Assembly (NCBI RefSeq): GCF_009707515.1
Contig: NZ_WLYI01000001.1
Coordinates: 124,001-188,000 of the forward strand
Length of the DNA stretch: 64,000 nt
DNA from: Pseudomonas karstica
Lineage (GTDB): Bacteria; Pseudomonadota; Gammaproteobacteria; Pseudomonadales; Pseudomonadaceae
Direction of reading: 5' to 3'
Shown: in pieces, positions 41,252-60,556 of the stretch
Position numbering within the stretch: position 1 is the stretch's first letter
Layout: each line of letters begins with the position of its first letter
The notes under the pieces: model-generated
What the model was told of the DNA's origin: nothing
What the model saw: only the letters and a program-made list of their open reading frames with translations
The model's database searches: none
Program-made: the position numbers and the translations under genes

Positions 41252-41278
41252 CAGGTATTTCCTCATCAGGTTGGCCGG

Positions 41279-41683: not shown

Positions 41684-41714
41684 GGGCGAGGTTCACGGAT
41701 CAGATTTTATTCAA

Positions 41715-41729: not shown

Positions 41730-41794
41730 GTGCAAATATACCAATCTCCCTTATTCGCCACGACGAAGGGCGTAATGCTTAACCGAGAAAGCCT

Positions 41795-42163
41795 ATGAAA
41801 TATCTACTGTGCAGCCTGCTGCTGGTGACTGCGACCCAAGCCAGCGCCCAAGCGTCAAACCCGCTGGCCACTTGCACACGCAGCGCCACCCTGCTGTCGT
41901 GCGTTGATGCCCTGGGCAATGCCTATAGCGTCGCCACCGTTGGCACCACCACGTATTTGCGGGGTTTCGAGGTGATCGGCAAACGCTATTGGGCACAAAC
42001 CAATAGCCGCTACGGGCAACTGACGTTCTTTACCGGGTTGGCGTCCGATGGCGAAGCGTGGGTGGGCTACACACGGCGGGTGGGCTGGACGACTATCAAC
42101 CGGTTTTCCAGCTCCGCAGGGGCCCGTGCCAAGTTCACCTGCAGCCGTATGACCGGTTGTTAG
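41795..42163 (+). CDS. Small secreted cysteine-containing protein, predicted Zur target
   Basis: The 122-residue protein has a signal peptide (MKYLLCSLLLVTATQASA) and a short mature domain with four cysteines (LATCTRSATLLSC, then FTCSRMTGC at the end) that may form disulfides. I do not recognise a family; a homologue sits at the same place in P. aeruginosa (PA5537). It is divergent from dksA2 and shares the Zur box 65 bases upstream. GAGAAAG precedes the ATG. The stop overlaps the convergent amidase gene by four bases. A role in zinc limitation is inferred from position only. Confidence 0.8.
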   Translation: MKYLLCSLLLVTATQASAQASNPLATCTRSATLLSCVDALGNAYSVATVGTTTYLRGFEVIGKRYWAQTNSRYGQLTFFTGLASDGEAWVGYTRRVGWTTINRFSSSAGARAKFTCSRMTGC

Positions 42164-43371
42164 GCCTGGTTTTCCTTCTGCTCCTGGACCCAGGCCATAT
42201 AACTGTTAACCGGTGGATTCTTCTGAAAATAACGCTGCAGGCCTGCAAACAAGCCGTCTGCCACTGCTTGTTGGTGGCGTGCCGTGACTAGCCGCCGACT
42301 GTCCCGGGCGTTGGAAATAAAGCCGGTTTCCACCAGGATCGACGGCACGTCTGGTGACTTGAGCACCGCGAACCCTGCTTGTTCCACGCGCTTTTGATGC
42401 AGCGTGGTGATCCCCGCCAGACTCCCCAATACCGTGCTGCCCAATTGAAGGCTGGCGGCGATGGTCGCGCTCATCGACATGTCGAGAATCACTCCGGCCA
42501 GCATCGGATCCTTGTCCTTGAGATTGAGCAAACTGGTCGCCCCCAGCAGGTCGGCACCGTTTTCCCGTTGGGCCATGAAACGTGCGGTAGCCGACGTTGC
42601 GCCCCCTTCAGACAAAGCGTAAACCGACGCCCCCGAAGCGGTGAGTCGCGGTGCCGCATCGGCGTGTACCGAAATGAACATATCGGCTTTGTGCTTGCGG
42701 GCAAACTCCACGCGTTTGCGCAGCGGCACGAAGAAGTCGTCGTTACGCACCAGTTTCACGTCGAAGCCCTTCTCGCGCTTCAAGCGTTTAGCCAGCAATT
42801 GCCCAATGGACAGCACCACGTCTTTTTCTCGTTCACCCTTGGCGCCGACAGCACCGGGGTCTTTGCCACCGTGGCCGGGGTCGACCACCACAATGATGTC
42901 GCGCTTGGGATGAGCCCTGCCCACCTGCGCGGCCAGGGGCGCTGGTGCGGCGGCGACTTGCAGAGGGGCACGCACGGCGTTGCTCAGGTCAAGAACCAAG
43001 CGATGCCCTTGGCCGTCCTGAGGCGACAAAAGAAAGCTGTTGAGCTGCATGGGCGCAGCCAGGTCCAGGACGATCCGTGTATCACTCTTGCCAAAATGCC
43101 CGGAACGAATCGAGGTGATTCCGCTGTTGGCCAAGGTCAACTGGCTGAAATCGCCACTTAACTGCGCGCCGGAAAGATCAATGATCAACCGCTCCGGAGC
43201 GGTCAGAGAAAAGGTTTTGTACTGCACCGGCCCGCTGAGATCAAACACCAACCGCAGCTTGTCAGACGAGCGCCACAGGCGAGCATTGCGAATCTGCGTG
43301 GCCGAAACACCAAAGGGCAAGGTGAACACTGCGCTGGCCAGCAACAGGTTGAGGAGTTGACGTCTGTGCAT
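42160..43371 (-). CDS. amiA: N-acetylmuramoyl-L-alanine amidase (AMIN + Amidase_3), Zur-linked
   Basis: This 403-residue periplasmic zinc enzyme cleaves peptidoglycan peptides from MurNAc. It has a twin-arginine-like signal (MHRRQLLNLLLA), an AMIN domain (about 30-150, IRNARLWRSSDKLRLVFDLS) and the Amidase_3 domain (about 175-385). Zinc ligands are seen in VVDPGHGGKDPGAVG, the glutamate of KGEREKDV, and FISVHADAA; the second catalytic glutamate is in ILVETGFISNARD. The ATG at 43371 is chosen for the signal sequence; the frame is open 100 codons upstream. A Zur box lies 85 bases upstream, so this copy may be an amidase induced by zinc starvation. Confidence 0.92.
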   Translation of the reverse strand: MHRRQLLNLLLASAVFTLPFGVSATQIRNARLWRSSDKLRLVFDLSGPVQYKTFSLTAPERLIIDLSGAQLSGDFSQLTLANSGITSIRSGHFGKSDTRIVLDLAAPMQLNSFLLSPQDGQGHRLVLDLSNAVRAPLQVAAAPAPLAAQVGRAHPKRDIIVVVDPGHGGKDPGAVGAKGEREKDVVLSIGQLLAKRLKREKGFDVKLVRNDDFFVPLRKRVEFARKHKADMFISVHADAAPRLTASGASVYALSEGGATSATARFMAQRENGADLLGATSLLNLKDKDPMLAGVILDMSMSATIAASLQLGSTVLGSLAGITTLHQKRVEQAGFAVLKSPDVPSILVETGFISNARDSRRLVTARHQQAVADGLFAGLQRYFQKNPPVNSYMAWVQEQKENQA

Positions 43372-43455
43372 GGCATACACCGGGAATGAGGGAGCGTCCG
43401 TACTCGACATAACTGAATAAAAAGACGGGAGCAGAAAAATCATCGTCGCTCGCAT

Positions 43456-43470
43456 TGTTATAATATAACA
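43456..43470. promoter_or_regulatory. Zur box between amiA and folE2
   Basis: TGTTATAATATAACA is identical to the box at 41715. It lies 85 bases before the amidase start and 32 before folE2, so it can control both divergent transcripts. Confidence 0.9.
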
Positions 43471-43501
43471 TGTCTTTTTATTTCTAACGATGGACCTGCT
43501 C

Positions 43502-44398
43502 ATGAATGCGCTGACTCTGCCGGATATCGCTGCGCAGGCTTCACGCCAGGCCTTGCCGCTCGACTGGGTCGGCATGTGCGGTATTGCCCTTCCGATCCTG
43601 ATTGATGGCCAGCGTCTCAGTGCCAAGGCTGATGCGGGTGTCAGCCTAGACGATGGCGAGGCCCGTGGCATTCATATGTCGCGGCTGTACCTGGCGCTAG
43701 AAGCGCTTGAGCGGGAATCCCTCACGCAGGCCTTGTTGCGCGATGTACTGCAGCGCTTCCTCGACAGTCATGAGGGTCTCTCCCAGAACGCCTATCTGCG
43801 CATTCATGCGGACCTGCTACTTAAACGTCCGGCACTGATCAGCCCTTTGAGCGGCTGGAAGACCTATCCGGTGAGCATTGAAGCGCGCCTGGAAAACCAG
43901 ATGTTCCACGTGGAACTAAAAATTGACGTTACTTATTCCTCAACCTGTCCCTGCTCTGCTGCCCTCGCCAGGCAGTTGATTCAGCAGCAATTTATCGATG
44001 ATTTCGCCACCATGTCTTTGCAGCATGAAGATGTCCTGACCTGGCTCGGCAGTGCAAAAGGCATCGTCGCCACGCCCCACAGCCAACGCAGCAGCGCGCA
44101 ATTACGGGTCCACCTGCAAGCCAATCAGCGCACGCTGCCGCTGACGCAACTGATCAACGAGGCCGAAGCCGCCCTCGGCACAGCAGTACAAACCGCCGTT
44201 AAGCGCGCCGACGAACAAGCCTTCGCCTTGGCCAACGGCCAGAACCTGATGTTCTGCGAAGACGCCGCCCGCCGCTTGAACCTGGCCCTGAAAGGCATGC
44301 AGGCGGTAAAAGCCTTCCACCTGAAAGTCATCCACGCCGAAAGCTTGCACGCCCACGACGCCGTGGCCGAAAGCCGCTGGGCAAGGGCCGCCCTGTGA
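43502..44398 (+). CDS. folE2: FolE2, GTP cyclohydrolase IB
   Basis: FolE2 makes dihydroneopterin triphosphate from GTP, the first step of folate synthesis, and unlike FolE does not need zinc. The 298-residue sequence has WVGMCGIALPI near the start, the metal-cysteine region YSSTCPCSAALARQL near residue 150, and HSQRSSAQLRV near 197. It replaces the zinc enzyme FolE when zinc is scarce, which fits the Zur box 32 bases upstream. An ATG four codons earlier is an alternative start. The stop overlaps the GTG start of the next gene. Confidence 0.95.
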   Translation: MNALTLPDIAAQASRQALPLDWVGMCGIALPILIDGQRLSAKADAGVSLDDGEARGIHMSRLYLALEALERESLTQALLRDVLQRFLDSHEGLSQNAYLRIHADLLLKRPALISPLSGWKTYPVSIEARLENQMFHVELKIDVTYSSTCPCSAALARQLIQQQFIDDFATMSLQHEDVLTWLGSAKGIVATPHSQRSSAQLRVHLQANQRTLPLTQLINEAEAALGTAVQTAVKRADEQAFALANGQNLMFCEDAARRLNLALKGMQAVKAFHLKVIHAESLHAHDAVAESRWARAAL

Positions 44399-45063
44399 TC
44401 ACTTGCAAAGCCCTGCGTTGGGGCGCCCCCGGCCAGCCATTGACGCCCGCGGTCAATTTCGAGTTGGCCAAAGGCAGCCTCACCGGCATGATCGGCGCCA
44501 ACGGTTCCGGAAAAAGCAGCCTGTTAAAAGTCATTGCCGGTTTGCAGAAGCCCTTGGCGGGCAAAGTCAACCTGGCTGTTCCACGCCGCGGCAGCCTGTC
44601 GTTCCTGCCCCAGCAGCAACACCTGGACCGCCAGTTCCCTATCAGCCTGCAGGAACTGGTGGGTGCTGGTTTCTGGGGTAGTAAGCAAACCTCTCAGCAA
44701 CGCAGCCAACGCCTGCAAGCCGTCCTCGAAGACTGGTGCTTGAGCGGGCTGGAGCATCGACCATTGATGGCGCTTTCCGGTGGCGAGCTGCAACGTGCCC
44801 TGCTCGCCCGCATGAGCCTGGCCGAGGCGCCGGTACTGCTGCTCGACGAGCCTCATGCCGCCCTCGATGAACAGGGCCAGGCACTGCTGTGGAAACACAT
44901 CCACGCCTGGCACGCCGAAGGCCGCACGCTGGTAGTGGTGTGCCATGACCTGACTGCCGTACGCCAACATATTCCCCAGGCACTGCTGATCAAGAGCAGC
45001 GGCTGCATACTGGCACCGAGTAAAGAATTGATTCTCCTGCAACCGCACACGCAGGTGGCCTGA
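44395..45063 (+). CDS. Metal ABC transporter ATPase (ZnuC-like)
   Basis: This 222-residue ABC ATPase has Walker A GANGSGKSSLLKVIAG (residues 34-49), Q-loop LPQQQHLDR near 73, signature LSGGELQRALLARMS near 125, Walker B APVLLLDEPHAALDE near 145 and the H-loop VVCHDLTAVR near 181. It starts with GTG within the folE2 stop. With the following permease and binding protein it forms a manganese/zinc-type importer. Location in the Zur operon points to zinc. Confidence 0.92.
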   Translation: MITCKALRWGAPGQPLTPAVNFELAKGSLTGMIGANGSGKSSLLKVIAGLQKPLAGKVNLAVPRRGSLSFLPQQQHLDRQFPISLQELVGAGFWGSKQTSQQRSQRLQAVLEDWCLSGLEHRPLMALSGGELQRALLARMSLAEAPVLLLDEPHAALDEQGQALLWKHIHAWHAEGRTLVVVCHDLTAVRQHIPQALLIKSSGCILAPSKELILLQPHTQVA

Positions 45064-45929
45064 TGCACTTCACCGCGCACCTGTGGCTGCCTTTCGGCGA
45101 CTTTGTATTCATGCGCCGAGCCTTGTTTGGCGGGCTGGTCCTGGCCTGCAGTACTGCGCCGCTTGGGGTGTTCTTGATCCTGCGGCGCATGAGCCTGATT
45201 GGCGACGCCGTAGCCCACGGCATCCTGCCCGGTGCGGCCCTGGGTTTCTGGTTTGCCGGCCTGAGCCTGCCTGCACTGACTGTCGGTGGCCTCGGCGCCG
45301 GTCTGAGTATGGCCGGGTTGGCCGCGTGGATTACCCGTCGCACCGGCCTTCGAGAAGATGCCAGCCTCGCCGCCATCTACCCCATCTCTTTGGCCTGCGG
45401 CGTGCTGATCCTTGGTATTGCCGGCAAGCGCCTGGACCTGCTGCACTTGCTGTTTGGCTCCGCCCTGGCGGTAGACGGCCCGACTCTGACCGGCATGCTT
45501 TGGGTCTGCGGATTCAGCCTGGTCGCCATGGCGCTGATCTACAAACCGCTGCTGCTGGACACCCTCGATCCGTTGTTCCTGCAAACCGTCAGCCGTCTCG
45601 GCCCATTGGCCCATGGTTTGTTCCTGACCCTGGTGGTGCTGAACCTGGTGATCGGCTTTCAGGCCATTGGCGCGTTGATGGTGGTCGGCTTGATGATGTT
45701 GCCAGCAGCGGCCTCCCGTTTCTGGAGCCGACGTTTACCGGTGTTGATCGCGGTATCGGCAGTGCTGGGATGCCTGTCAGTGTGGCTTGGCCTGCTGCTG
45801 TCGTTCTACTACTCACTGCCCAGCGGGCCGGCGATTGTGCTGGTGGCTGGCGGTTTGTACCTGCTGTCTGTGGTCTTTGGTCCGGTGCACGGCTTGCTGC
45901 GCCGCCCGCCCCTGCTTACATCCCAATGA
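45063..45929 (+). CDS. Metal ABC transporter permease (ZnuB-like)
   Basis: This 288-residue inner-membrane permease belongs to the ABC-3 family for zinc or manganese. LVLACSTAPLGVFLILRRMS and LIGDAVAHGILPGAALGFW (about residues 22-61) are the family's opening signature. Eight or so helices follow, with LMVVGLMMLPAAASRFWSR near 207. Start and stop codons overlap its neighbours (TGATG with the ATPase). Translational coupling across the operon is evident. Confidence 0.93.
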   Translation: MHFTAHLWLPFGDFVFMRRALFGGLVLACSTAPLGVFLILRRMSLIGDAVAHGILPGAALGFWFAGLSLPALTVGGLGAGLSMAGLAAWITRRTGLREDASLAAIYPISLACGVLILGIAGKRLDLLHLLFGSALAVDGPTLTGMLWVCGFSLVAMALIYKPLLLDTLDPLFLQTVSRLGPLAHGLFLTLVVLNLVIGFQAIGALMVVGLMMLPAAASRFWSRRLPVLIAVSAVLGCLSVWLGLLLSFYYSLPSGPAIVLVAGGLYLLSVVFGPVHGLLRRPPLLTSQ

Positions 45930-45940
45930 GGTGTTTCCCG

Positions 45941-46819
45941 ATGCGTGCTCTACTCGTGCTGTTCAGTGTCTTGCTGTCGCTTGCGACTGCCCAGGCCGCC
46001 GAAAAACTCCAAGTGGTTACCAGCTTCAGCATCCTCAATGACATGACTCACCAGATCGGTGGCGACCATATCCAGATCAGCAACATGGTCGGCCCCGACG
46101 CCGATGCCCACACCTATGAGCCAACGCCCGATGATGCCAAGGCCCTGCTCAAGGCACGGGTGATCATCAAGAATGGCCTGGGTTTCGAGCCGTGGCTGGA
46201 TCGCCTGATCACCAGCACCGAGACCAAGGCCACCGTGGTCAGCGCCAGCAAAGGGGTGATCGCCCGTACCATGGAAGAAGACGGCGACACGATTCCCGAC
46301 CCCCACGCCTGGCACAACCTGGCCAACAGCGAAATCTATGTCAACAACATCACCAAGGCATTGATCGCCGCCGACCCTGCCAACCAGGCCGATTATCAGC
46401 ACAACCGCCAGGTGTACCTGAAAGAAATCTACCGCCTGCTGGCCGAAGCCCAGACCAAGCTGGGCTCACTGCCTCCGGGTAACCGCCGCATCGTGACCTC
46501 CCACGACGCTTTTGGGTACCTGGGCCAGGCCTATGGCATCGACTTCATGGCGCCACAGGGCCTGTCTACCGAGCGTGAGCCATCGGCTGCCGAAGTGGCT
46601 GCGCTGATCACCCAGATCCGCAGCGACCACGTTAAAGCCGTGTTCATGGAAAACATCAAGGACTCGCGCCTGCTCAAGCAGATCGCCGACGAAAGCGGCG
46701 CGCATCTGGGCGGCACGTTGTACTCCGACGCCTTGGCGACAGAAGGCCCGGCCAGCACCTTTACCGGGCTGTTCGAATACAACCTCAACACTTTGTACGC
46801 CGCCCTGAGCAAGCCATGA
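45941..46819 (+). CDS. Metal ABC transporter binding protein (ZnuA/TroA family)
   Basis: This 292-residue periplasmic protein has a signal peptide (MRALLVLFSVLLSLATAQA). Family ligand segments are DAHTYEPTPDD (first histidine), DPHAWHNLAN (second), TSHDAFGYLGQAYG (third) and the late aspartate in GGTLYSDALA. The long His/Asp-rich loop of typical ZnuA is absent; only EEDGDTIPD occupies its place, so it resembles the manganese/zinc TroA or AztC type. The Zur operon context argues for zinc. The ATG at 45941 has a GAGGTG site. The last codons overlap hisI2. Confidence 0.92.
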   Translation: MRALLVLFSVLLSLATAQAAEKLQVVTSFSILNDMTHQIGGDHIQISNMVGPDADAHTYEPTPDDAKALLKARVIIKNGLGFEPWLDRLITSTETKATVVSASKGVIARTMEEDGDTIPDPHAWHNLANSEIYVNNITKALIAADPANQADYQHNRQVYLKEIYRLLAEAQTKLGSLPPGNRRIVTSHDAFGYLGQAYGIDFMAPQGLSTEREPSAAEVAALITQIRSDHVKAVFMENIKDSRLLKQIADESGAHLGGTLYSDALATEGPASTFTGLFEYNLNTLYAALSKP

Positions 46820-47241
46820 GCCCGAGCATGCTCGACCTGGAAGCCGCTGCCCTGGGCAGTCGCTTCCCCCTTGATCACGTATTGGAGGCCCTGGCGTGGA
46901 ACAGCGATGGCCTGATTGCCGCCATCGCCCAGCAACACGGTAGCGGTGAGGTCTTGATGTTGGCGTGGATGAACCGTCAGGCCCTTAATGAAACCTTGGC
47001 GAGCGGGCAAGTCTGCTACTGGTCACGCTCGCGCCAGCAGCTATGGCGCAAAGGCGAAACCTCCGGCCACTGGCAGCAACTGGTGGAGGCACGCCTGGAC
47101 TGCGACGGCGACGCCGTACTGTTGATCGTCGACCAGCAAGGGCCGGCCTGCCACACCGGCCGACCCACCTGTTTCTACAACGCTATCGTCAACGATCAAG
47201 TGCACATCATCACCGCCCCTCTCAAGGAACCAGCAGCATGA
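46816..47241 (+). CDS. hisI: HisI2, phosphoribosyl-AMP cyclohydrolase paralogue
   Basis: This zinc- and magnesium-dependent histidine-pathway enzyme opens the adenine ring of PR-AMP. The 141-residue protein has the HisI core: VLMLAWMNRQALNETL near residue 46, VCYWSRSRQQLWRKGETSG near 65, DCDGDAVLL near 95 and ACHTGRPTCFY near 110 with zinc-binding cysteines. It is not in a his operon but in the Zur operon, where HisI paralogues are known among zinc-starvation genes; it may work with a different metal or higher affinity. Both ends overlap neighbouring genes. Confidence 0.92.
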   Translation: MSPSMLDLEAAALGSRFPLDHVLEALAWNSDGLIAAIAQQHGSGEVLMLAWMNRQALNETLASGQVCYWSRSRQQLWRKGETSGHWQQLVEARLDCDGDAVLLIVDQQGPACHTGRPTCFYNAIVNDQVHIITAPLKEPAA

Positions 47242-47798
47242 TCCGCAAAAACCCTTCCGGCGATTTGCCGGTGATCGCCGAATCGGCCTACGTCGATAAA
47301 ACCGCAATCATCTGCGGCAAAGTCATCATCGGCGAAAACGTCTTCGTCGGGCCCTACGCCGTCATCCGTGCCGACGAGGTCGACGCAAACGGCGACATGG
47401 ACCCCATCATCATCGGCGCCAACTCCAATATCCAGGATGGTGTGGTGATCCACTCAAAATCCGGCGCGGCGGTCACCGTCGGCGAGTTCACCTCCATCGC
47501 CCACCGTTCCATCGTCCATGGCCCCTGCACCGTCGGCGATCGGGTGTTTATCGGCTTCAACAGCGTGCTGTTCAACTGCTCCGTCGGTGATGGCTGCGTG
47601 GTGCGCCACAACTCGGTGGTCGACGGCTGCGACCTGCCCGCGGCGTTCTACGTGCCCTCCACAACCCGCATCGGGCCCAACACCGACCTCTCGCTGTTCC
47701 CACCGGTAAGCGTCAGCGCCTCGGAGTTCTCCGAAGACGTGGCTCGTACCAACGTCGACCTGGTGCGTGGCTACAAAGCCCTGCAAAACGAGTTCTGA
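47238..47798 (+). CDS. Gamma-type carbonic anhydrase (left-handed beta-helix)
   Basis: The 186-residue protein is built of hexapeptide turns (IICGKVIIGENVFVGPYAVI, VVIHSKSGAAVTVGEFTSIA). Metal histidines of the gamma class are seen in GVVIHSK and in SIAHRSIVHGPC. Gamma carbonic anhydrases can use iron or cobalt, so this copy may replace zinc-only beta enzymes in zinc starvation, which explains its place in the Zur operon. The ATG at 47238 overlaps the hisI2 stop. Enzymatic activity is inferred. Confidence 0.9.
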   Translation: MIRKNPSGDLPVIAESAYVDKTAIICGKVIIGENVFVGPYAVIRADEVDANGDMDPIIIGANSNIQDGVVIHSKSGAAVTVGEFTSIAHRSIVHGPCTVGDRVFIGFNSVLFNCSVGDGCVVRHNSVVDGCDLPAAFYVPSTTRIGPNTDLSLFPPVSVSASEFSEDVARTNVDLVRGYKALQNEF

Positions 47799-47800
47799 AC

Positions 47801-49138
47801 ATGAGCCGCCTACTGATCCGCAACGCTCGCCTGGTGAACGAAGGCCAGGAATTCGACGCTGATGTGCTGGTCTCCAATGGCCGCATCGAGAAGATTGCCA
47901 GCAGCATCGACGGACAAAACCTTGCGCTGGAAATCGACGCTCAAGGCCAATGGCTGCTGCCGGGGATGATTGACGACCAAGTGCACTTTCGTGAACCCGG
48001 CGCGCCGGACAAGGGCAGTTTCTACAGTGAATCCCGCGCAGCCGTGGCCGGCGGCATCACCAGCTTCATGGACATGCCCAACACTCAGCCTGCAACTCTC
48101 ACCCTGGATGCCCTGGCCGATAAAAAGCGCCGCGCCGCCCTGCATTCGGTGGCCAACTACGGCTTTCACTTTGGCGTCAGTAACGACAACCTCGACACCG
48201 TCGCCGCCCTTGATCCGCGAGAGGTGGCCGGGGTCAAGGTGTTCATGGGTGCCTCAACCGGCAATATGTTGGTGGATGATCCGCGAATCCTGGAGCGTCT
48301 GTTTGCCGTGGTCCCCACCCTCCTGCTAGCCCATTGCGAACACACGCCGAGCATCCAGGCTAACGAACAACGGTTGAGAAATCGCTTTGGCGATCATATT
48401 CCCGCCGTGGCACACCCGTTGATTCGCGACGCCGAAGCCTGTTATCGCTCTTCCTCCCTGGCCGTCGAACTGGCCCGCCGCCACGGCACGCGCCTGCACG
48501 TGCTGCACCTGACCAGCGCACGGGAACTGGCGCTGTTCGAAGACAAGCCCCTGACGGAAAAACATATCAGCGCCGAAGTCTGCCTTCATCATTTGCTGTT
48601 CGATGACCGCGACTATGCGCAGCTTGGCCACCAGATCAAATGCAACCCGGCGATCAAGACCCGAGCCGATCGCGATGCCCTGCGCCTGGCCCTGCTGGGC
48701 AATCGCCTGGATGTCATCGGCAGCGATCATGCTCCACATACCTGGGCACAAAAGCAGTTGCCCTACTGCGAGGCACCCTCAGGCTTGCCGCTGGTACAAC
48801 ACGCCCTGCCGGCATTGCTGGAGTTGGTGGCCGACGGCCTGCTGCCATTGACCACCCTGGTGGCAAAAACCAGCCACCGCGTCGCCGACCTGTTCGCCAT
48901 TCCTGACCGCGGCTACCTGCGCGAAGGTTATTGGGCCGACCTGGTGCTGATCAAACCCGAGCCCCGCGGCAAGCCCGTCAACAGCCAGCCGATCCTCGCC
49001 CACTGCGGCTGGACACCCTTCGCCGGGCGCAGCTTGCGTCACAGTGTCAGCACCACCCTGGTCTCTGGCAACCTGGCCTGGCACGAGGGGCAGGTGGTCG
49101 ACAGCTGCCAGGGGTTGCCCCTGCATTTTCAACGTTAA
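47801..49138 (+). CDS. pyrQ: Dihydroorotase paralogue (PyrQ-like)
   Basis: This 445-residue amidohydrolase of pyrimidine synthesis closes carbamoyl aspartate to dihydroorotate. Metal motifs are DDQVHFREPG near residue 58 (family form D-x-H-x-H replaced by D-Q-V-H-F), VKVFMGASTGN near 146 with the bridging lysine, LLAHCEHT near 174, VLHLTSARE near 233 and GSDHAPHTWAQK near 306. It is the last gene of the Zur operon, matching the extra dihydroorotase (PA5541, pyrQ) of P. aeruginosa, thought to work when zinc is scarce. The stop overlaps the convergent DUF3617 gene by four bases. Confidence 0.92.
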   Translation: MSRLLIRNARLVNEGQEFDADVLVSNGRIEKIASSIDGQNLALEIDAQGQWLLPGMIDDQVHFREPGAPDKGSFYSESRAAVAGGITSFMDMPNTQPATLTLDALADKKRRAALHSVANYGFHFGVSNDNLDTVAALDPREVAGVKVFMGASTGNMLVDDPRILERLFAVVPTLLLAHCEHTPSIQANEQRLRNRFGDHIPAVAHPLIRDAEACYRSSSLAVELARRHGTRLHVLHLTSARELALFEDKPLTEKHISAEVCLHHLLFDDRDYAQLGHQIKCNPAIKTRADRDALRLALLGNRLDVIGSDHAPHTWAQKQLPYCEAPSGLPLVQHALPALLELVADGLLPLTTLVAKTSHRVADLFAIPDRGYLREGYWADLVLIKPEPRGKPVNSQPILAHCGWTPFAGRSLRHSVSTTLVSGNLAWHEGQVVDSCQGLPLHFQR

Positions 49139-52587: not shown

Positions 52588-53370
52588 CTATGGTGCCCGA
52601 CATTCAAGCAAACCCTCCTGGACCCACTGTTTCAGCCAGGTAACCGCTTGCAATGCCGCGCCCTCTTGATAAGTGACTGCCAACTCGGCGCACAGTTCTG
52701 AAAAATTCCAGCCCGTGCTCACCATTCCAGCCAAGGCCCAGGCCTCGACTGGCGCCAGGGTGCGGTATTGACCTATGTTCTGGTGGCGCCAGATCAGGCA
52801 AACCTGGGCTTCGGGCAAGGCTTCGCTGCCGGGAAAGTCCGCTTGCTCCTTGCTTGATCGCCAAATCGCCACGCTATTGAAGCAACAGAGTATTTGCTGC
52901 ACCGAAGACGCCAGCTGCACTTGCAGCCCCGGCCAGGCCTCGGGAGGCAACTGCACCATGTACTGCAACGTCAACGGCTCGCCTTGTGGTGCATCAAAGG
53001 CCAGGGTAAATGCCCATTCAAGACGTACTAGCTCGGCCAACGGTACGCTTTGTTCGGCCACCAAATGTTCAAGGACAAACTCGCAAAACCGCTCGCCGAA
53101 CCAGCGCAAACTGTAATGGGTAGAGGGATAACGACGAATATAAGCCGCGCCCAACTGCGCAAACTCATCGTCCCCGAGCCAGTACCAAACGGCGCCGAAG
53201 TCACCCTGTAGCACTTCCTGCAACCGGGCCTGATAAGCGTTGTGGTAAATAGCCAGGCCCGTCTCGACGTCCAGCGTCGGACCGCCGATCAGCGTGGCGC
53301 TGAAGCCGCTACTTACTGTCTCTGATAATACCTGTTGCTCAAAAGCCAGTTGCCAGTCCGTCAGGCGCAT
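52588..53370 (-). CDS. bufC: BufC/HvfC-type partner protein (DUF2063)
   Basis: This 260-residue partner of the MNIO enzyme in bufferin and related RiPP systems is thought to bring precursor and enzyme together. LTDWQLAFEQQVLSE opens the DUF2063 domain, GLAIYHNAYQARLQEVLQGDF near residue 38 is its best-conserved block, and AAYIRRYPSTHYSLRWFGERF near 75 follows. Its start overlaps the BufB gene by ten bases. No DoxX-type fourth gene follows. Confidence 0.88.
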   Translation of the reverse strand: MRLTDWQLAFEQQVLSETVSSGFSATLIGGPTLDVETGLAIYHNAYQARLQEVLQGDFGAVWYWLGDDEFAQLGAAYIRRYPSTHYSLRWFGERFCEFVLEHLVAEQSVPLAELVRLEWAFTLAFDAPQGEPLTLQYMVQLPPEAWPGLQVQLASSVQQILCCFNSVAIWRSSKEQADFPGSEALPEAQVCLIWRHQNIGQYRTLAPVEAWALAGMVSTGWNFSELCAELAVTYQEGAALQAVTWLKQWVQEGLLECRAP

Positions 53371-54206
53371 AAAGGCCTCTTGGCCAGGACCATCGCACCC
53401 AGCTCCCGGGCCTTGGCCAACTCGCAGAGTAACTCTTCAAAGGGTGGAAAGTGGCCATCGCGCTCCAGTAGCGTCGAGACCGGGCCCAGGTGTTCCAGGG
53501 TCTGTTGATACAACGCCCAGACCGGGTCGCACACCGGGTGATCATGGGTATCGATCACGTAGTCGCCATAGTCCATGTGCCCGGCCAAGTGCAACTGGCG
53601 GATACTTTCGGGGGGCAGGTTGCAGATAAAGGTCCAGGCATCGAACCCATGGTTGCGGGAACTGACGTAGACGTTATTGACGTCCAGCAACAGCTGGCAA
53701 CCGCTGAGGTGTGTCAGGGCATTGAGAAATTCCCACTCGGTGAACTCATCTGCCTTGGATCGCACATAGCTGGAGACGTTTTCCAGTACCAGGGGGCGCT
53801 GCAACACATCCTGCACCTGCCGCACGCGATTGGCGACGTGGTACAGGCTTTCTTCGGTATAAGGCAGCGGCAACAGGTCATGCAACTGATGCGCGCTACC
53901 ACGGCTCCAACACAGATGGTCGGAAACCCACGCCGGCTGGATCCGTTCGGCCAGTTGCTTGAGTTGCTTCAGGTAATCGCGGTCGAGGTCATGGGGCCCG
54001 CCAATGGACAGGGACACACCGTGCATCACCAACGGATAACGCTCGGCAATAGCGTCCAGGTAGTACAAGGCTTTGCCGCCTTGCACCAAGTAATTCTCGG
54101 AGACGATTTCAAACCAGTCCACGGCCGGCGACTGTTCGAGAATCTCTTGATAATAAACGCTGCGTAACCCGAGGCCGTAACCCAGGCTGGGAAGGGAACC
54201 AGACAT
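53361..54206 (-). CDS. bufB: BufB/HvfB-type MNIO enzyme (DUF692)
   Basis: This 281-residue multinuclear iron oxidase of the DUF692 (MNIO) family has relatives that oxidise cysteines of a precursor peptide to oxazolone- or thiooxazole-type groups that bind copper. SLGYGLGLRSVYYQEILEQ begins the TIM barrel; metal and active-site blocks are MHGVSLSIGG, WVSDHLCW, LENVSSYV, LLLDVNNVYVSSRNHGFD, HLAGHMDYGDYVIDTHDHPV and LERDGHFPPF. The ATG at 54206 has a TTGGAG site. It lies between the precursor gene and bufC in one operon. Confidence 0.92.
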   Translation of the reverse strand: MSGSLPSLGYGLGLRSVYYQEILEQSPAVDWFEIVSENYLVQGGKALYYLDAIAERYPLVMHGVSLSIGGPHDLDRDYLKQLKQLAERIQPAWVSDHLCWSRGSAHQLHDLLPLPYTEESLYHVANRVRQVQDVLQRPLVLENVSSYVRSKADEFTEWEFLNALTHLSGCQLLLDVNNVYVSSRNHGFDAWTFICNLPPESIRQLHLAGHMDYGDYVIDTHDHPVCDPVWALYQQTLEHLGPVSTLLERDGHFPPFEELLCELAKARELGAMVLAKRPLCA

Positions 54207-54271
54207 CACACACTCCAAGGCAAAGTGTCCGCAGCGGCGGGGGGCCCGCTGCGGTGGCACTCGATTGCCGG

Positions 54272-54523
54272 TTACTCGCCGACTTTGCCGCCTGCTTTAT
54301 CGCACGCCGACTGAGTCATCGCCTTGAAGCCGTGGCCCTTGCAAACAGCCTGGCCTTTGCAGGCATTTTCAGCGGTTTTGCAATCGTTCATACCTTTGCA
54401 GGAAGTCACGCCGTAGCAATGAACCTGGGCATCTGCAGCCTGCACCTGGGTGGCGACCCCGGCAAACATGCCAGCAGCAGCGATAGCAAAGGCAGCACCA
54501 GCAGCAGCGGATTTAATGCTCAT
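54272..54523 (-). CDS. bufA: Bufferin-type precursor peptide (periplasmic metallophore)
   Basis: The 83-residue precursor has a long signal peptide (SIKSAAAGAAFAIAAAGMFA, cut near VQAAD) and a cysteine-rich core with HCYGVTSCKGMNDCKTAEN, then ACKGQAVCKGHGF and SACDKAGGK. There are six core cysteines. Lack of the EKCYGIAKAG motif of DUF2282 (BufA1) and presence of repeated C-K-G units point to the BufA2 type. After modification by BufB it should bind copper in the periplasm. GAGGA precedes the ATG at 54523; an upstream ATG at 54538 is less likely. Confidence 0.85.
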   Translation of the reverse strand: MSIKSAAAGAAFAIAAAGMFAGVATQVQAADAQVHCYGVTSCKGMNDCKTAENACKGQAVCKGHGFKAMTQSACDKAGGKVGE

Positions 54524-54639
54524 TCTTGTATTCCTCATGATCGGTAATGGAGTCGGCCAAACGGAGTGTTCAGTCCCGACACAGCACTAGAGTGAGGGGC
54601 CCTGGTGCCGTTACATCGAGACTGAATAATTTCCGAAAT

Positions 54640-56535
54640 TTATTCCGCAAGCTTCGACAGCGGCTCCTGGAACCGCAGTAAACGCCCGGCGTTACCCAGC
54701 ACCAGCAAAGTACTGAGGTTGTGCAACACCGCTGCAATCATTGCCCCCGCCGCGCCCAGCCAACCGAAAGCCGCAAACACCACAATTGCCAACGTCCAAC
54801 CCAGGCCGATGATCACATTGACCTGCAACGTATGCCGGCACTGCCGACTCAGCCGCACACAGGTACCCAGGCGTCGCAGATCGCTGCCGATCAGCACCAC
54901 GTCCGCCGAGGCCAGGGCAATATCTGCCCCGCCCGCGCCCATGGCCACGCCCACCACGCCGGCCTTGAGGGCCAGGGAATCGTTGATCCCGTCGCCTACT
55001 ACCATCGGCCGGAACCCGCTGCCGATTTCCCCCAGTACACGGTTGAGTTTGTCCTCCGGCAAAGCCTGGGCTTCGACATCACCGATGCCCACTTCCAGCG
55101 CCAGGCTGTCAGCCACGCTCTGGCGGTCGCCGGTGAGCAGCAATTGACGGCCCAGGCCCAGTTCCCGGAGCTCCTTCATGGCCTGGCGCGCCTCCGGCTT
55201 GATGCTGTCGGCGAGCAAGAGCCAGGCGAGGAATTGCCCATTGAGCGCCAACCCGGCAATCGGGCCGTCGTGCCTGGGCACAGGGGTGGTCGCAATGCTC
55301 AACTGCTCAAAGAGCTCCGGCCGACCGAGGGCCGCTTCGCCCTGTTCGGTCTGCGCCACCACACCCAAGCCCTGGCGTTCGCGAATATCCGAGAGCACCA
55401 ACAGCTGTTCTTGGCTGGCGAGCTTCGCCAACGCACGGCTGACGGGGTGGCTGCTGGCCGAGCCCAGGCTGGCTGCCAGGTTCAATAACACTTGGCGGTC
55501 CGGCACAGCGGTTTCAATGGACTGCAAGCGCAGGGTGCCAAATGTCAGGGTGCCGGTCTTGTCGACCACCAGGGAAGTCAGGTCCGCCAGCTCTTCCAGG
55601 AACGCCGAGCTGCGAATCAGAATCCCGTGACGCGCCGCCACCGCAATCCCGGCAATTGCCGTGGCCGGTGCCGACAATACCAACGCACACGGGCACGCAG
55701 CCACCAGCACGGCCAGCATCGCCTGGGCATCATTGGTCACAAACCAGGTGACCGCCGCCAGCAACAACACCAACACCATGTAACTGCCGGCATACCGCTC
55801 CAACAACCGGGTGATCGGCGGCTTGGAACGCTCGGCGCTTTGCATCAGGGCGATGACTTTACCCAAGGTCGATTCGTTGCCGGTACGGGTCACTTCCAGA
55901 CGCAGCAAGCCGTCCAGATTGATCGCGCCACCAAATACCTGCACGCCCACACTGGCCTCCAGCGGCACCGACTCACCGGTGATCGGCGCGGTGTCCAGGC
56001 TGGCCTGACCCGACAGCACCACGCCATCGGCGGGCACTCGGTCGCCGGCGCGTACTTCAACGATGTCACCGGTCTTCAGGGTGCCATTATCCACTTCGAC
56101 AATCGTCCCGTCGGCCTGCACCAAGCGTGCGTGGCTGCGGGTCAGCTTGCCCAAGGCGTGAATGGCTTCTTGAGAACCGATGACACTGCGCTCTTCCAGC
56201 ACATGACCAAAGATCATGATGATTGGCAACAAGGCAGCGGTCAGCAGGTCACCGGTAGCCCAGGCTCCCAGCATCGCCAGGGCGATCAACTGGTCGGTGA
56301 TGCCATGCAGGCTCGGGTAGCGCAGGCTGTACCAGGCCGAACGCATCACCGGCACGGCCACCAGCAAGGAGGCGACGCCCAGCAACAGCTGGCTGACGCC
56401 GCTCTGATCAGGGCTCAGCCAGCGCCAGGCCAGGCCCAGGGCGAGCAGGCCGAGGGCCAACATCGCCAACGTCAATTGCCGAGCGGCACTGCGCTGCTCG
56501 GCCGACGTCAGCATGGGGGCTGCATGAGCGGTCAT
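54640..56535 (-). CDS. hmtA: HmtA-like P1B-type ATPase, heavy-metal importer
   Basis: This 631-residue P-type ATPase has the CPC metal site VAACPCALVLSAP near residue 280, phosphorylation motif VDKTGTLTFG near 326, HP motif SASSHPVSRAL near 368, TGESVPLE near 167 and VVGDGINDSLALK near 520. It has no N-terminal metal-binding (CxxC) domain; the protein starts nearly at the first helix. P. aeruginosa HmtA (PA2435), its closest known relative by motif and gene context, imports copper and zinc. It is last in a four-gene operon with three SPFH proteins; start and stop overlap by four bases. A near-match Zur box is at the operon's head. Confidence 0.88.
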   Translation of the reverse strand: MTAHAAPMLTSAEQRSAARQLTLAMLALGLLALGLAWRWLSPDQSGVSQLLLGVASLLVAVPVMRSAWYSLRYPSLHGITDQLIALAMLGAWATGDLLTAALLPIIMIFGHVLEERSVIGSQEAIHALGKLTRSHARLVQADGTIVEVDNGTLKTGDIVEVRAGDRVPADGVVLSGQASLDTAPITGESVPLEASVGVQVFGGAINLDGLLRLEVTRTGNESTLGKVIALMQSAERSKPPITRLLERYAGSYMVLVLLLAAVTWFVTNDAQAMLAVLVAACPCALVLSAPATAIAGIAVAARHGILIRSSAFLEELADLTSLVVDKTGTLTFGTLRLQSIETAVPDRQVLLNLAASLGSASSHPVSRALAKLASQEQLLVLSDIRERQGLGVVAQTEQGEAALGRPELFEQLSIATTPVPRHDGPIAGLALNGQFLAWLLLADSIKPEARQAMKELRELGLGRQLLLTGDRQSVADSLALEVGIGDVEAQALPEDKLNRVLGEIGSGFRPMVVGDGINDSLALKAGVVGVAMGAGGADIALASADVVLIGSDLRRLGTCVRLSRQCRHTLQVNVIIGLGWTLAIVVFAAFGWLGAAGAMIAAVLHNLSTLLVLGNAGRLLRFQEPLSKLAE

Positions 56536-57578
56536 TGTTCGGCTCCCTGAATAATCAGGCGGGAATCATCTTTAGGGTCGACTGTGGTCACGGAACCGGC
56601 CTGACCGAGGATCTTCGGCAGGCGCTCGCGGTACAGGCGCAGTAAAAGGCCGGGGTCTTTGACCTGAGCCAGGCTGGCCACGGTGGCGGTTTGTGCCTGG
56701 GCATTGGCCAGGCGTTCGCGGGCGCCAGCGTGAGCCACTTGCACCAGTCGGTCGGCGTCCTGAGTGGCGCCCTGGGTCAGTTTCTCGGCGTCGGTGCGGG
56801 CGTTGGCCACAGCCTTGTCGGCTTGCTGGCTGGCAGTCAGTACCGCGTTGAAGGCATTCACCGCCGGGCTCGGCAAGCTCGATTGCACATCGACCCGGGT
56901 CACTTCGATACCCAGGCCCAGGCCTGTAGACGCCAGGTCTACCAGGCGCTGGTTGATGCCTTGCACCAGATCCCCGCGCAAGCGTTCACGGCGTTCGGCA
57001 GCCTGGTTGTCGGCGCCGATCAGTTCGGGACGCGCCACCAGAATAGTGTCCAGGTCCCGAGCGGCCGTCAGGGCCACGGCGCTACGGGTAACCAACCGAT
57101 CCAGCGCCGGCAACACGTGAGTACCCTGCAACACAAAGGCGTAAGGCTCAGTGACCTTGTAGAACACCCGCACATCCAGTTGCACCACGCCGGCATCACC
57201 CGTCAGCAGGTAACCGGAACCGGCCAGGGCATCACTCAGGGGCGTGGCCAAACTGGCGACGCGGTCCGCCTGGATCGCAGCGTCGGAGCGCAGGAGAGTT
57301 TCCACACGGCGCTCAATTACCCGATCCGCCGCCGGCAACAACACCACTTGTTCAAAGGGACGCGGCCAAGCCAAGAGCAGCCCAGCATTCTGAATCCGAT
57401 CCAATGCGCCGAAGTGCAAGACCACGGCACGGTTCTGCGGATCGATCTGCCGCACGTTGGAAAACGCCCAGGCCAGCGCGGCCAGCACGGTCACCGCATA
57501 CAGTGCGAGGAAGGTCAGGCGCCCGGCCTGGATCCACGGGCTGTCGAGGCTGTCCGGGTCTTTGGACGACAGACTCAT
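56532..57578 (-). CDS. SPFH/band-7 protein, HflC/HflK-like (third of the operon)
   Basis: This 348-residue protein has one N-terminal helix (FLALYAVTVLAALAWAFSNV, about residues 20-39) and an SPFH domain (about 45-230) with VLHFGALDRIQNAGLLLAWP and GVVQLDVRVFYKV. A helical region with many Ala, Gln and Arg residues follows (about 230-320). Its length and layout recall HflC/HflK, which form a membrane cage around FtsH. Here it overlaps both the second SPFH gene and the ATPase gene by four bases, so the partner is more likely the P-type ATPase than FtsH. Confidence 0.86.
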   Translation of the reverse strand: MSLSSKDPDSLDSPWIQAGRLTFLALYAVTVLAALAWAFSNVRQIDPQNRAVVLHFGALDRIQNAGLLLAWPRPFEQVVLLPAADRVIERRVETLLRSDAAIQADRVASLATPLSDALAGSGYLLTGDAGVVQLDVRVFYKVTEPYAFVLQGTHVLPALDRLVTRSAVALTAARDLDTILVARPELIGADNQAAERRERLRGDLVQGINQRLVDLASTGLGLGIEVTRVDVQSSLPSPAVNAFNAVLTASQQADKAVANARTDAEKLTQGATQDADRLVQVAHAGARERLANAQAQTATVASLAQVKDPGLLLRLYRERLPKILGQAGSVTTVDPKDDSRLIIQGAEQ

Positions 57579-58564
57579 GGCTGTGGATCCTTGGGCCCGT
57601 CCACCAATGCACGGAACGGTGCGGCATCGGTGCGCAGGATGATTTTAGTGCCCGGCGTTACCACCGTGCCCAAGGTATCGAGGGAACGCAGCAAGTTATA
57701 CAACTGCGGGTTGCTGGCGTAGGCACGGCCGTAGATTTGCGCCGCTTCCACACGGGATTGGGCTTCGATGTCTGCGGCTTTCACCGTGGCATCAGCCTGG
57801 ACGATACGCGCGTCACGCTCGGCGGCGGAGCGGATCTGCGCCGCTTCGCGCTTGCCCACGGCGGTGCGTTCGGTGGCAATGGTTTCCCGCTCGGCACGCA
57901 TGCGGTCGACGGTGGCCGCCAGGGTCACCGAAGGCAAGGTCAGCCGCTCGATACCCACCTGCACCACACGCACGCCATAGGTAGTGAGCAACTGTTGATC
58001 AATCTGTTGGCGCAACTGCGCTTCGAAATCGGCGATCCGCACCTGGCTGGCGTCAGTGTTCACCAGGTTGGCCAAATCGAAACTGCTGGCGGTGGTTTCA
58101 AGAGCCGAACCGACAAAGGTACGAATCTGCCGCGCCGCTTCGTCCGGCTGGTTCTGCACGGCGCGCATAAAACGTTTCACGTTGTCGGCATCACCCTGGA
58201 CCTGCCAGGCCACATAGGCCTGGACGATGATCCGCAAACCATCCCGCGTGCCCACGTCCTGCAAACCGCTGGAAGTGGTGCGCAAGCGCAAATCCACCGG
58301 GATCGCCGCCTCGAACGGCGCCGGCCAGCGCCAGCCAAGGCCAGGCTCCAGCAGCACCCGCGCAGGGTTGCCGAACCGGGTGATCACCGTGGCCTCGCCG
58401 GAACGCACTTGCACCAGGCTGGCGGCGGCAACGGCGAACAGCACCAGCAACATCGCCCAGGCCATGCGCCGCCAAGGGAACGGGCCGGCGTCTTGTTCTT
58501 CCCCGTGATGGTGATGATGGTGGTGGCCGTGGTGGTGACCATGATCATGAGAATGAGCGCTCAA
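57575..58564 (-). CDS. SPFH protein, HflC-like, with histidine-rich cytoplasmic tail
   Basis: This 329-residue SPFH protein has an N-terminus, before the single helix at about 33-52, that contains some thirteen histidines in the first 21 residues (start MSAHSHDHGHHHGH). By HflC topology this tail faces the cytoplasm, while the SPFH domain (VRSGEATVITRFGNPARVLL, then LRTTSSGLQDVGTRDG) is periplasmic. The helical part RAERETIATERTAVGKREAA is HflC-like. The tail is a plausible zinc-binding element and HflC of FtsH has none. It is translationally coupled to the next SPFH gene by a four-base overlap. Confidence 0.88.
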   Translation of the reverse strand: MSAHSHDHGHHHGHHHHHHHGEEQDAGPFPWRRMAWAMLLVLFAVAAASLVQVRSGEATVITRFGNPARVLLEPGLGWRWPAPFEAAIPVDLRLRTTSSGLQDVGTRDGLRIIVQAYVAWQVQGDADNVKRFMRAVQNQPDEAARQIRTFVGSALETTASSFDLANLVNTDASQVRIADFEAQLRQQIDQQLLTTYGVRVVQVGIERLTLPSVTLAATVDRMRAERETIATERTAVGKREAAQIRSAAERDARIVQADATVKAADIEAQSRVEAAQIYGRAYASNPQLYNLLRSLDTLGTVVTPGTKIILRTDAAPFRALVDGPKDPQP

Positions 58565-58575
58565 CAGACAACTCC

Positions 58576-60516
58576 TTATTGAACGGCTTTACGCGGCACC
58601 GAAGGGTCGGCCGGCAAAGTAAAAGAACGCAGATCGATCGTCGGGACGCTGCTGCCACCCAGGCGATGATCAAGAATAAGCAACTTGGCGTGGCTCAGGC
58701 CCTGGCTCAGTTGGCCGAGGTACTGCTCCAGCACGAACGCTTGGCCGGCATGGGCGTAAGCCTTTTGCTCGGCGACAAAGCGCAGGTCCGCCGCCCGGGC
58801 ACCCGCGTTGACCTCATGGGCCGTGGCCTGGGCCAAATCCTGGGCCGTGCTGGCTTGCAGCAACGCCTGATTGGTTTGTTCGCTGGCCACGCCGCGCTCA
58901 CGGGAGATCAACGCCTGGGCACCAATTTGCGCCGCTTGCACGCCATGGTAGGCGTTGGCCGCGCCAGCGGGCGGGTGAATGGCTTCCACCACGGTGGCGA
59001 GGATTTCCACGCCGCTGTCGAGTCTCTGCAAATCGGCTTGTACCGTCCGGCCTATTGCATCGGCCAGGCCGGTGCGCTGCTCCCCAAGCAATTCATCAAG
59101 GGTACGCGAGGCAAAGTCATGCACGAGAATGCGGCTGGCGGTGCTGCGAATCAGCGTGGGGACATCGGCACTGTTGTAGGTGGCGGCAAGCGCGGCCTGA
59201 TCAGTCAGGCCGATACGATAAACGAAGCGCACGTCCATGTTGACGATCTGGAAGCTCTGCTTGTCGCCGCTGCTGCTGGCGATCACCTGGGACTTGTCAT
59301 TCACATGGCTGGCGTCCCACAGACGATTGGCGATCAGTGGTGCAGGGCCTTCGGCGGGCGCCAATTCTGTGGTGGCCGTCTCGCCGACGCTGGTGGCCAA
59401 CTCGTGGACCACGCCATTTTCCACACTCAGCACCCGGCCCAACGGCCATGGCAACCCCACGTGCAGGCCCGGCCCGAAGACCTCCACTGGTTTGCCAAAG
59501 CGTTCATAAATCCCACGGCCTTGCAGGGCTACTTCATGCACGCCCGTCAGTAACCAACCCACCGCCAACACCACGACCAATATCGGCAAAAACGCCCGGC
59601 GCATATAGGTAAACGCCCAGATCTGTCGCAGGTCGATGCCGAAGCGGTTGTGCAATTCGTGTTGCAAGGCGAGCAGCGGCTGTGGCGGCCAGCGCAGCAG
59701 GTCGGCAATAAAGCTTTGCGCCATCAACCGAGGCTCCAGGCGCTCCTGGCGTGGGCTGAACAGAGACAGCGCCGCCCGCAGCAGAAACTCCAATGCCACC
59801 AACGCTGGCAGCAAACCGATCAACACCGCCAGGCGCAATGGCCAGACGGATTCTTCGCTGGCAAATAACAGGCAAATCGCACTGAGCGCCAGACAGATGA
59901 TTGCCACCCGGCTCAACTGCGCCAGTTGCCCTGCTTCCGGCCATTGGGCAGTGCTTTCCTGGGCCAGGCGTCGTTCAAATACCAGCAAGCCGAAGGCCAG
60001 CAACAGCGCGACCGCAGCGCCAACACTGGCGGCCTGCCCCACCACAGCGGGTGGCAACGCCAGGTTCCAGAACTCTACGATGCTGAGCAGTGCCAGCAAG
60101 GACCCGCCGCACAACCACAGGACGGGCGCGCCTATCTGCGCCAACAGGCCACCCCAGCCGCTGCTGATGCGGCCGAGCAGGCGCTCATACCAACCGGAAT
60201 CTTCCACGGCCTGCGGCGGCTCAATCAACGACGCCGTCGGGTCTTCCAATGCCTGGGCCCGCCAATCGGCCACCCACCAGGCCGATTGCAACCCGGCCAC
60301 CAGCACCAGCAAGGAGGAGGCACAGTTGATGAGCACCACCGGCCAAATCGACAGCGGCGCGAACAACGTCACGAATAACGCCAGCACCCAGCCGCCGATG
60401 GCCATGACTGTCAGGCTGACACCCGCCTGGCGTAACCGCCGGGCATGAACTATCCCTTGTTGAAAGCGTGGCAGGCCGTCCACCAATGCGCCTTCAGCGT
60501 CTAGATCCACTCGCAT
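58576..60516 (-). CDS. SPFH protein, HflK-like, with polytopic N-terminal part
   Basis: This 646-residue protein has an N-terminal half (about 1-290) with five or six hydrophobic helices, among them IGGWVLALFVTLFAPLSIWP and ALLSIVEFWNLALPPAVVG. A further helix (ILVVVLAVGWLLTGVHEVAL, near 313) leads into an SPFH domain with QGRGIYERFGKPVEVFGPGL and a C-terminal helical region. Ordinary HflK has only the last helix, so the multi-pass extension is unusual. The start could be ATG 60516 (GGACGG site) or ATG 60534; both lie just below the Zur-like box. It is first in the operon with two more SPFH genes and hmtA. Confidence 0.82.
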   Translation of the reverse strand: MRVDLDAEGALVDGLPRFQQGIVHARRLRQAGVSLTVMAIGGWVLALFVTLFAPLSIWPVVLINCASSLLVLVAGLQSAWWVADWRAQALEDPTASLIEPPQAVEDSGWYERLLGRISSGWGGLLAQIGAPVLWLCGGSLLALLSIVEFWNLALPPAVVGQAASVGAAVALLLAFGLLVFERRLAQESTAQWPEAGQLAQLSRVAIICLALSAICLLFASEESVWPLRLAVLIGLLPALVALEFLLRAALSLFSPRQERLEPRLMAQSFIADLLRWPPQPLLALQHELHNRFGIDLRQIWAFTYMRRAFLPILVVVLAVGWLLTGVHEVALQGRGIYERFGKPVEVFGPGLHVGLPWPLGRVLSVENGVVHELATSVGETATTELAPAEGPAPLIANRLWDASHVNDKSQVIASSSGDKQSFQIVNMDVRFVYRIGLTDQAALAATYNSADVPTLIRSTASRILVHDFASRTLDELLGEQRTGLADAIGRTVQADLQRLDSGVEILATVVEAIHPPAGAANAYHGVQAAQIGAQALISRERGVASEQTNQALLQASTAQDLAQATAHEVNAGARAADLRFVAEQKAYAHAGQAFVLEQYLGQLSQGLSHAKLLILDHRLGGSSVPTIDLRSFTLPADPSVPRKAVQ

Positions 60517-60543: not shown

Positions 60544-60556
60544 GTTACCATATAAC
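60544..60556. promoter_or_regulatory. Near-match Zur box upstream of the SPFH-HmtA operon
   Basis: GTTACCATATAAC matches the core GTTATAATATAAC of the two boxes in the zinc cluster at 11 of 13 bases, and the right half-site is perfect. It lies 28 bases before the ATG at 60516. A zinc-starvation role is known for the homologous P. aeruginosa genes, which supports but does not prove Zur binding. Confidence 0.55.

Follow-up and report, generated by a model that had tools for sequence, protein, structure and literature searches.

Four tightly packed genes on the minus strand of Pseudomonas karstica, at positions 54640-60516 of a 64,000-nucleotide stretch of contig NZ_WLYI01000001.1 (hereafter the window, which covers positions 124,001 to 188,000 of the contig), encode three SPFH proteins – SPFH1, SPFH2 and SPFH3, in that order – followed by a P1B ATPase that is called HmtA-type here by its search scores. 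The set is conserved as a unit well beyond this strain, two of its SPFH proteins carry conserved histidines, and a Zur-type box lies in front of it. We propose, at a probability of about one half, that it is a Zur-controlled, mobile metal-uptake module working as one unit, in which the three SPFH proteins would form a dome enclosing the HmtA pump. A preliminary description of the window had seen in these genes a possible zinc-import assembly of SPFH proteins around a pump. What it reported of the arrangement is confirmed, since coordinates, strand and spacings between consecutive genes from SPFH1 to the ATPase (+11, -4 and -4 bases) are all as noted. Its interpretation stands for the linkage, the metal-uptake context, the conserved histidine tail and the ATPase devoid of a metal-binding domain, the remainder keeping the conditional form in which we discuss it below.

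Four genes that stay together

Conservation of the arrangement was followed in a set of 99 loci, 80 of which are Pseudomonas loci taken by SPFH1 similarity (the best 80 of 368 relatives, the closest among them being that of P. spelaei, at 93%, as would fit a Pseudomonas that probably belongs to the fluorescens group), while 19 were added by hand from plasmid, distant and family matches (six plasmid records and 13 genomes); most of these loci belong to related Pseudomonas, and the counts are not independent. All four genes are found in one order and on one strand at 98 of the 99 loci, the last one (L085) being a 3.3 kb contig without the other three genes, and 98 loci were used for the counts of tails. 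Residues were counted in alignments that comprised, after filters for length and stop codons, 99 SPFH1, 98 SPFH2, 95 SPFH3 and 95 ATPase sequences. The survey of other genomes that had been suggested in the preliminary description therefore finds the histidine-rich SPFH gene and the hmtA-type gene kept together, which excludes a linkage confined to this strain.

Searches with SPFH1 and with the ATPase returned identical sets in three collections: the same 11 of 398 phylum genomes, in 4 of 212 genera (E <= 1e-60 for SPFH1 and E <= 1e-130 for the ATPase), the same 28 of 198 family genomes, in 3 of 19 genera (E <= 1e-100 for the ATPase), and the same 10 records among 72,556 plasmids (E <= 1e-20 and E <= 1e-80, respectively). 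At these thresholds neither SPFH1 without the ATPase nor the ATPase without SPFH1 was found in any of the three, in which the phylum and family draws overlap, related genomes are not independent and the ATPase searches scored at most three (phylum) or six (family) first-look candidates per genome. Among 274 class genomes and 56 order genomes, SPFH1 was matched solely in its own genome. A looser SPFH1 search (249 phylum genomes, E <= 1e-10) matched 29, seven of them near full length at 48% or more and the other 22 over the SPFH half alone, at 21-29% identity. Between loci, the distances measured for one of the four genes correlate with those for each of the others (r 0.90-0.96, 24 loci), and in FastTree trees of 23 loci the groups of close relatives agree across genes and the deep branch order differs.

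The cassette spans gamma-, beta- and alphaproteobacteria, with members in Pseudomonas, Klebsiella, Burkholderia, Paraburkholderia and Rhizobium, and it is carried by Rhizobium plasmids and by a Paraburkholderia plasmid. The Klebsiella aerogenes plasmid that bears it is predicted to be conjugative and has a Tn3-family transposase nearby, and that of Burkholderia ubonensis, also predicted to be conjugative, has transposase genes on both flanks. Because of these plasmid hosts, conjugation predictions and nearby transposases, the four-gene set is probably a mobile cassette whose parts move together. On the Paraburkholderia plasmid (L150, 1-13375), the annotation of genes near the cassette names a zinc ABC transporter, a copper chaperone of the PCu(A)C kind and a GTP-binding protein.

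A histidine-rich tail on SPFH2

SPFH2, an HflC-like protein of 329 residues with a TTG start (57575..58564, minus strand), begins with a histidine-rich tail that covers its first 21 residues (58502..58564, minus strand) and has 13 histidines, all within the first 20. Such a tail had been ascribed to one of the SPFH proteins from the start; it is located at the N-terminus of SPFH2 and is conserved at 97 of 98 loci, 96 of which were counted by a script (at least seven histidines) and the 97th, L112, read by eye. The HflK and HflC-like proteins encoded elsewhere in the P. karstica genome have no histidine at all in their first 45 residues. Over three classes the composition of the tail is kept while its length varies, and an origin by microsatellite accident was judged unlikely on this ground. 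Taken together, the gene order, the conserved tail and the identical genome sets of SPFH1 and the ATPase make a chance arrangement very unlikely.

The sole exception to the tail is the Klebsiella plasmid copy, which has a single histidine there and whose ATPase starts with MSHQCSHGHVHIHPDF, that is, five histidines and one cysteine in 13 residues. An ATPase with at least four histidines in its first 30 residues is found at 14 of 98 loci, all of them among the 19 added ones. Hence, the histidine tail belongs either to SPFH2 or to SPFH2 and the ATPase together, and in a single case only to the ATPase, which is the distribution one would expect if the tails of SPFH2 and of the ATPase served the same site, the swap being seen at one locus. 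The idea that the SPFH2 tail may act in trans on the pump gains support from this, since the Klebsiella ATPase carries histidines where the SPFH2 tail is gone and since 14 of 98 ATPases have histidine-rich starts. If the topology of HflC holds for SPFH2, its tail would be cytoplasmic. The TTG start of SPFH2 is found at 90 of 98 loci, as counted by a script that always picks the start furthest upstream, and hints at selection for weak translation.

SPFH1 and the likeness to HflK and HflC

SPFH1 (58576..60516, minus strand) is an HflK-like protein of 646 residues when read from its ATG, the listed ORF (open reading frame) beginning further upstream with a GTG at 60624. Four of its histidines, H352, H404, H514 and H524, do not vary among 99 of 99 sequences, and two others, H371 and H466, are shared by 97. 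Three of the invariant ones (H404, H514 and H524) have no counterpart in the 22 distant SPFH relatives that the looser search matched over the SPFH half (one of which has a gap at H404), nor in the HflK, SPFH2 and SPFH3 of the same genome; H404 belongs to an insertion peculiar to SPFH1, whose alignment is not certain. H352 is common to 14 of the 22 distant relatives, and H466 to two of them and to HflK of the same genome. Judging from the topology of HflK, the SPFH1 histidines would be periplasmic, where they are putative metal-binding residues. The SPFH domain is preceded by an N-terminal half that the preliminary description had called multi-pass, and a low-confidence AlphaFold model (43 sequences) agrees with it, with seven predicted helices of at least 20 residues in the first 324 residues; E243, R247 and D295 are conserved in this half.

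SPFH1, SPFH2 and the HflK-like SPFH3 (56532..57578, minus strand, 348 residues) all exceed the cut-off of Pfam Band_7 (PF01145) and match by sequence the HflK/HflC chains of the solved cage (7vhp, 7wi3, 9cz1/9cz2), SPFH1 resembling HflK over its C-terminal half only. Their scores stay under the NCBIfam equivalog cut-offs, with 53 bits for SPFH1 and 88.8 for SPFH3 against 159.4 for hflK, and 99.1 for SPFH2 against 134.4 for hflC. P. karstica has, besides, a separate HflK and an adjoining HflC-like protein (the latter by reading its translation) on contig C70. Compared with the HflK/HflC-FtsH assembly of E. coli, which likewise consists of SPFH proteins of the HflK and HflC kinds, the locus has three paralogues rather than two, one of them multi-pass and another histidine-tailed, and the genetic partner is a pump instead of FtsH.

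The P1B ATPase

The ATPase (54640..56535, minus strand, 631 residues) scores over the cut-offs of TIGR01525 (522.3 vs 346.25 bits) and TIGR01512 (487.4 vs 313.5 bits). Its Pfam matches are E1-E2_ATPase and Hydrolase, with no HMA domain, and the P. karstica protein is therefore without an N-terminal metal-binding domain, as had been read from its translation. C281-P-C283, H363-P364 and H605-N606 are conserved in an alignment of 27 sequences, and C281, C283, H363 and H605 are present in 95 of 95. The C-terminal HNLST aligns with the HEGST of 7qbz, which we take to be the P1B-4 pump sCoaT, and has no counterpart in 4umv, a zinc-transporting ATPase and presumably ZntA. The P-type core is common to all three proteins, whereas 7qbz has SPC at the place of CPC and 4umv is without the HN..T motif. 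The ATPase thus combines CPC with HN..T. A further difference is that pumps of the HmtA type were found exclusively with SPFH1 in the collections searched. Both sCoaT and ZntA are exporters.

Between SPFH3 and hmtA, four loci (L157, L158, L160 and L163) have an ORF of 150-162 residues whose product reads as a secreted protein, in the place that PA2436 takes in P. aeruginosa; there is no ORF at this place in L159 and L164.

A Zur-type box and zinc-starvation surroundings

A Zur-type palindrome, GTTACCATATAAC, lies upstream of SPFH1 at 60544..60556. The pattern GTTAYNNNRTAAC has three copies in the window, against 0.04 expected, and it is not enriched genome-wide, where it occurs at 11 places compared with 18 for a reversed control pattern; it was chosen after viewing the SPFH1 promoter and does not derive from a published matrix. 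Because the pattern by itself is not enriched and was chosen post hoc, the case for Zur is made by the place of the box and by its presence at other loci. Within 250 bases upstream of SPFH1, 84 of 99 loci have a perfect palindrome and nine more have a copy with one mismatch, as against zero perfect and 2.2 one-mismatch copies in shuffled upstream regions. The shuffles preserved base composition only, and one identical sequence accounts for 67 of the 99 best matches, which are thus not independent.

The surroundings are consistent with such control, as an island of zinc-starvation genes lies at 40043-49138 of the window, with ZigA, a DksA-family protein, an amidase, FolE2 and an AztABC-like zinc ABC transporter (which scores under the Azt cut-offs), to which HisI-like, carbonic-anhydrase-like and PyrC-like proteins can be added by reading translations. 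Two perfect Zur-type palindromes lie inside the island, at 41716 and 43457. Together with what has been published on the P. aeruginosa cluster, namely its binding by Zur and its response to zinc, the box and these neighbouring genes bear out the metal-uptake context that had been assigned to the locus.

On its own strand, hmtA is immediately followed (52588-54538 of the window) by the genes of a BufA2 bufferin precursor, whose score passes the NCBIfam cut-off, an MNIO-family enzyme and its DUF2063 partner. Among the 96 loci with enough sequence, bufA2 is present at 50 and cfa at 79.

Counterparts in the literature

The P. aeruginosa cluster PA2434-PA2439 has the same kinds of genes, the two loci being compared here by gene kinds: SPFH1 has the position of PA2439/PaFlo5, SPFH2 that of PA2438/PaFlo6, SPFH3 that of PA2437/PaFlo7 and the ATPase that of PA2435. 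P. karstica differs in that its hmtA is without a histidine-rich N-terminus and in that no gene lies between SPFH3 and hmtA. Much is already in print for this cluster in the accessible parts of the papers cited here, to which our statements about them are limited. In a znuA mutant, PA2434-PA2439 are up, hmtA 5.6-fold and the SPFH genes 9.0 to 14.4-fold, and a weak Zur site was predicted for the hmtA cluster (PMC4542158). The promoter of PA2439, the first gene of the hmtA locus, is gel-shifted by Zur with zinc (PMC8531726), and proteins of the cluster rise upon zinc depletion, in a study whose authors mention HflB (FtsH) (PMC11761036). The response of these genes to zinc limitation, which the preliminary description had mentioned, is thus in print (PMC4542158; PMC11761036). 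N-acetylcysteine also raises the SPFH trio, by 0.6-0.8 log2 units (PMC9431628), and the trio has been described as the PaFlo5-6-7 operon, together with its horizontal transfer (PMC13086221), in a main text that has the word 'ATPase' 0 times. P. aeruginosa HmtA is reported in a review to import copper and zinc. What the accessible parts of these reports leave undescribed is the obligate linkage, the conservation and swap of the histidine tail and the SPFH1 histidines.

The closest precedent found for the proposed architecture, an SPFH ring around a membrane transporter, is the human stomatin dome, which encloses AQP1 and UT-B (PMC12407830). That dome is made of stomatin alone, around a water channel or a urea transporter, and presumably involves no genetic linkage, whereas the partner here would be an ATP-driven pump. 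The preliminary description had held the cage-and-pump architecture to be new. This stands in so far as no physical HmtA-SPFH complex, cage around a pump, obligate linkage or histidine-tail swap was found described in the accessible parts of the open-licence literature; it falls short in that PA2434-PA2439, their control by Zur and the SPFH trio had been published before (PMC4542158; PMC8531726; PMC11761036; PMC13086221) and that the stomatin dome is known (PMC12407830). The locus is real and conserved and its type partly known, and what is new, as far as searched, is its reading as an obligate cage and pump.

A proposed dome around a pump, and what else it could be

If the proposal is correct, the module might work as follows: (i) SPFH1, SPFH2 and SPFH3 would together build a periplasmic dome like that of HflKC, with HmtA held in its membrane ring, (ii) the multi-pass half of SPFH1 could help to keep the pump inside the ring, (iii) upon zinc starvation, Zur would leave the promoter and the module would be produced, (iv) metal would enter the dome, where the conserved SPFH1 histidines would catch it, (v) HmtA would move it inward and (vi) the cytoplasmic histidine-rich N-tail of SPFH2, joined in some lineages by a histidine-rich N-tail of HmtA, would receive it and prevent its back-flow.

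Several points weigh against this proposal. A P1B pump acting as an importer is unusual, the physical complex between the SPFH proteins and HmtA is one that we infer from the genes, and the AlphaFold models of SPFH1 and of the ATPase (the latter from 27 sequences) are both poor, with a mean predicted local distance difference test (pLDDT) of 46 and 48, respectively. The SPFH1 histidines could be structural. Since there is no conserved histidine or cysteine in the membrane half of SPFH1 (99 sequences), nothing in this half points to a route for metal, and such a route was dropped as a candidate. A box with at most one mismatch is missing upstream at six of 99 loci, which include the Klebsiella, Burkholderia, Paraburkholderia and Rhizobium tumorigenes plasmids. 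In P. aeruginosa, hmtA mRNA was constantly low and unrepressed after zinc addition in one study (PMC8531726), most single p-values for the cluster in zinc-depletion proteomics are above 0.05 (PMC11761036) and deletion of the SPFH trio has only slight phenotypes, with no zinc-limited test reported in the accessible parts (PMC13086221).

The chief alternative, which we consider unlikely, is that the SPFH trio serves as a version of HflKC for times of zinc starvation, joining or replacing it around the zinc protease FtsH and tuning proteolysis, so as to spare or clear membrane proteins, HmtA included, the pump being then a regulatory neighbour. This would fit with SPFH proteins that are HflK- and HflC-like and with the link to FtsH noted by the authors of the proteomic study (PMC11761036). 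Moreover, the HflK residues important for FtsH binding, Arg141, Glu142 and Arg185 (PMC13220708), align with H371, E372 and R457 of SPFH1. Among ten SPFH1 orthologues, E372 is replaced by Q in one and R457 by E, Q or K in four; as the former is mostly and the latter often kept, room is left for a role of SPFH1 with FtsH, which is a further point against a dome dedicated to the pump. Contact residues are, however, no clean marker, since HflK of the same genome retains one of the three, Arg141, and the attempt to use them to tell a cage for FtsH from a cage for the pump was uninformative; at the same columns, the SPFH3 residues differ between two alignments. It is the ATPase, not FtsH, that belongs to the cassette and is never apart from SPFH1 in the three collections at the thresholds used, the genome keeps its separate hflK and hflC-like pair, the trio scores under the equivalog cut-offs, and an FtsH tuner would presumably need neither a histidine-rich tail nor SPFH1-specific histidines.

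It is also rather improbable, in our view, that the trio stabilises HmtA and other zinc importers, or concentrates them, by forming a dome or microdomain, with a histidine tail that is merely a cytoplasmic zinc buffer and no dedicated complex of cage and pump. SPFH proteins have been described as general membrane organisers in the same paper that gives the slight phenotypes of the trio deletion (PMC13086221, accessible part), both of which speak for this idea, as does the zinc-importer-like ABC transporter in the island of the window, whereas the fact that the trio is paired one-to-one with a single kind of ATPase, even on plasmids with different flanking genes, speaks against it. The possibility that the module imports copper rather than zinc, or exports metal, with Zur control being secondary, seems remoter still. 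It draws on the reported uptake of both copper and zinc by HmtA, on the hmtA mRNA that did not fall after zinc addition (PMC8531726) and on the bufferin operon that follows hmtA at about half of the loci, bufferins being described as copper-binding; it has to contend with the widespread Zur-type box, the adjoining zinc-starvation genes, the Zur gel shift (PMC8531726) and the proteomic rise on zinc depletion (PMC11761036).

Outlook

Beyond the proposal of a dome-enclosed uptake module, a more specific form of it can be put forward, which we hold tentatively and with more doubt than confidence: the locus might encode a primary metal importer of a new kind, an obligate four-subunit machine in which a CPC/HN..T P1B ATPase would work only inside a hetero-SPFH dome, with histidine sites on both membrane faces (those of SPFH1 periplasmic, the SPFH2 tail cytoplasmic) that would give inward direction or metal supply, all in one mobile cassette. 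An SPFH trio that is bound one-to-one to a single pump, with histidines in SPFH1 and in the SPFH2 tail, makes these ideas testable in one small operon. If they are true, SPFH domes enclosing transporters would extend from human red cells to bacteria.

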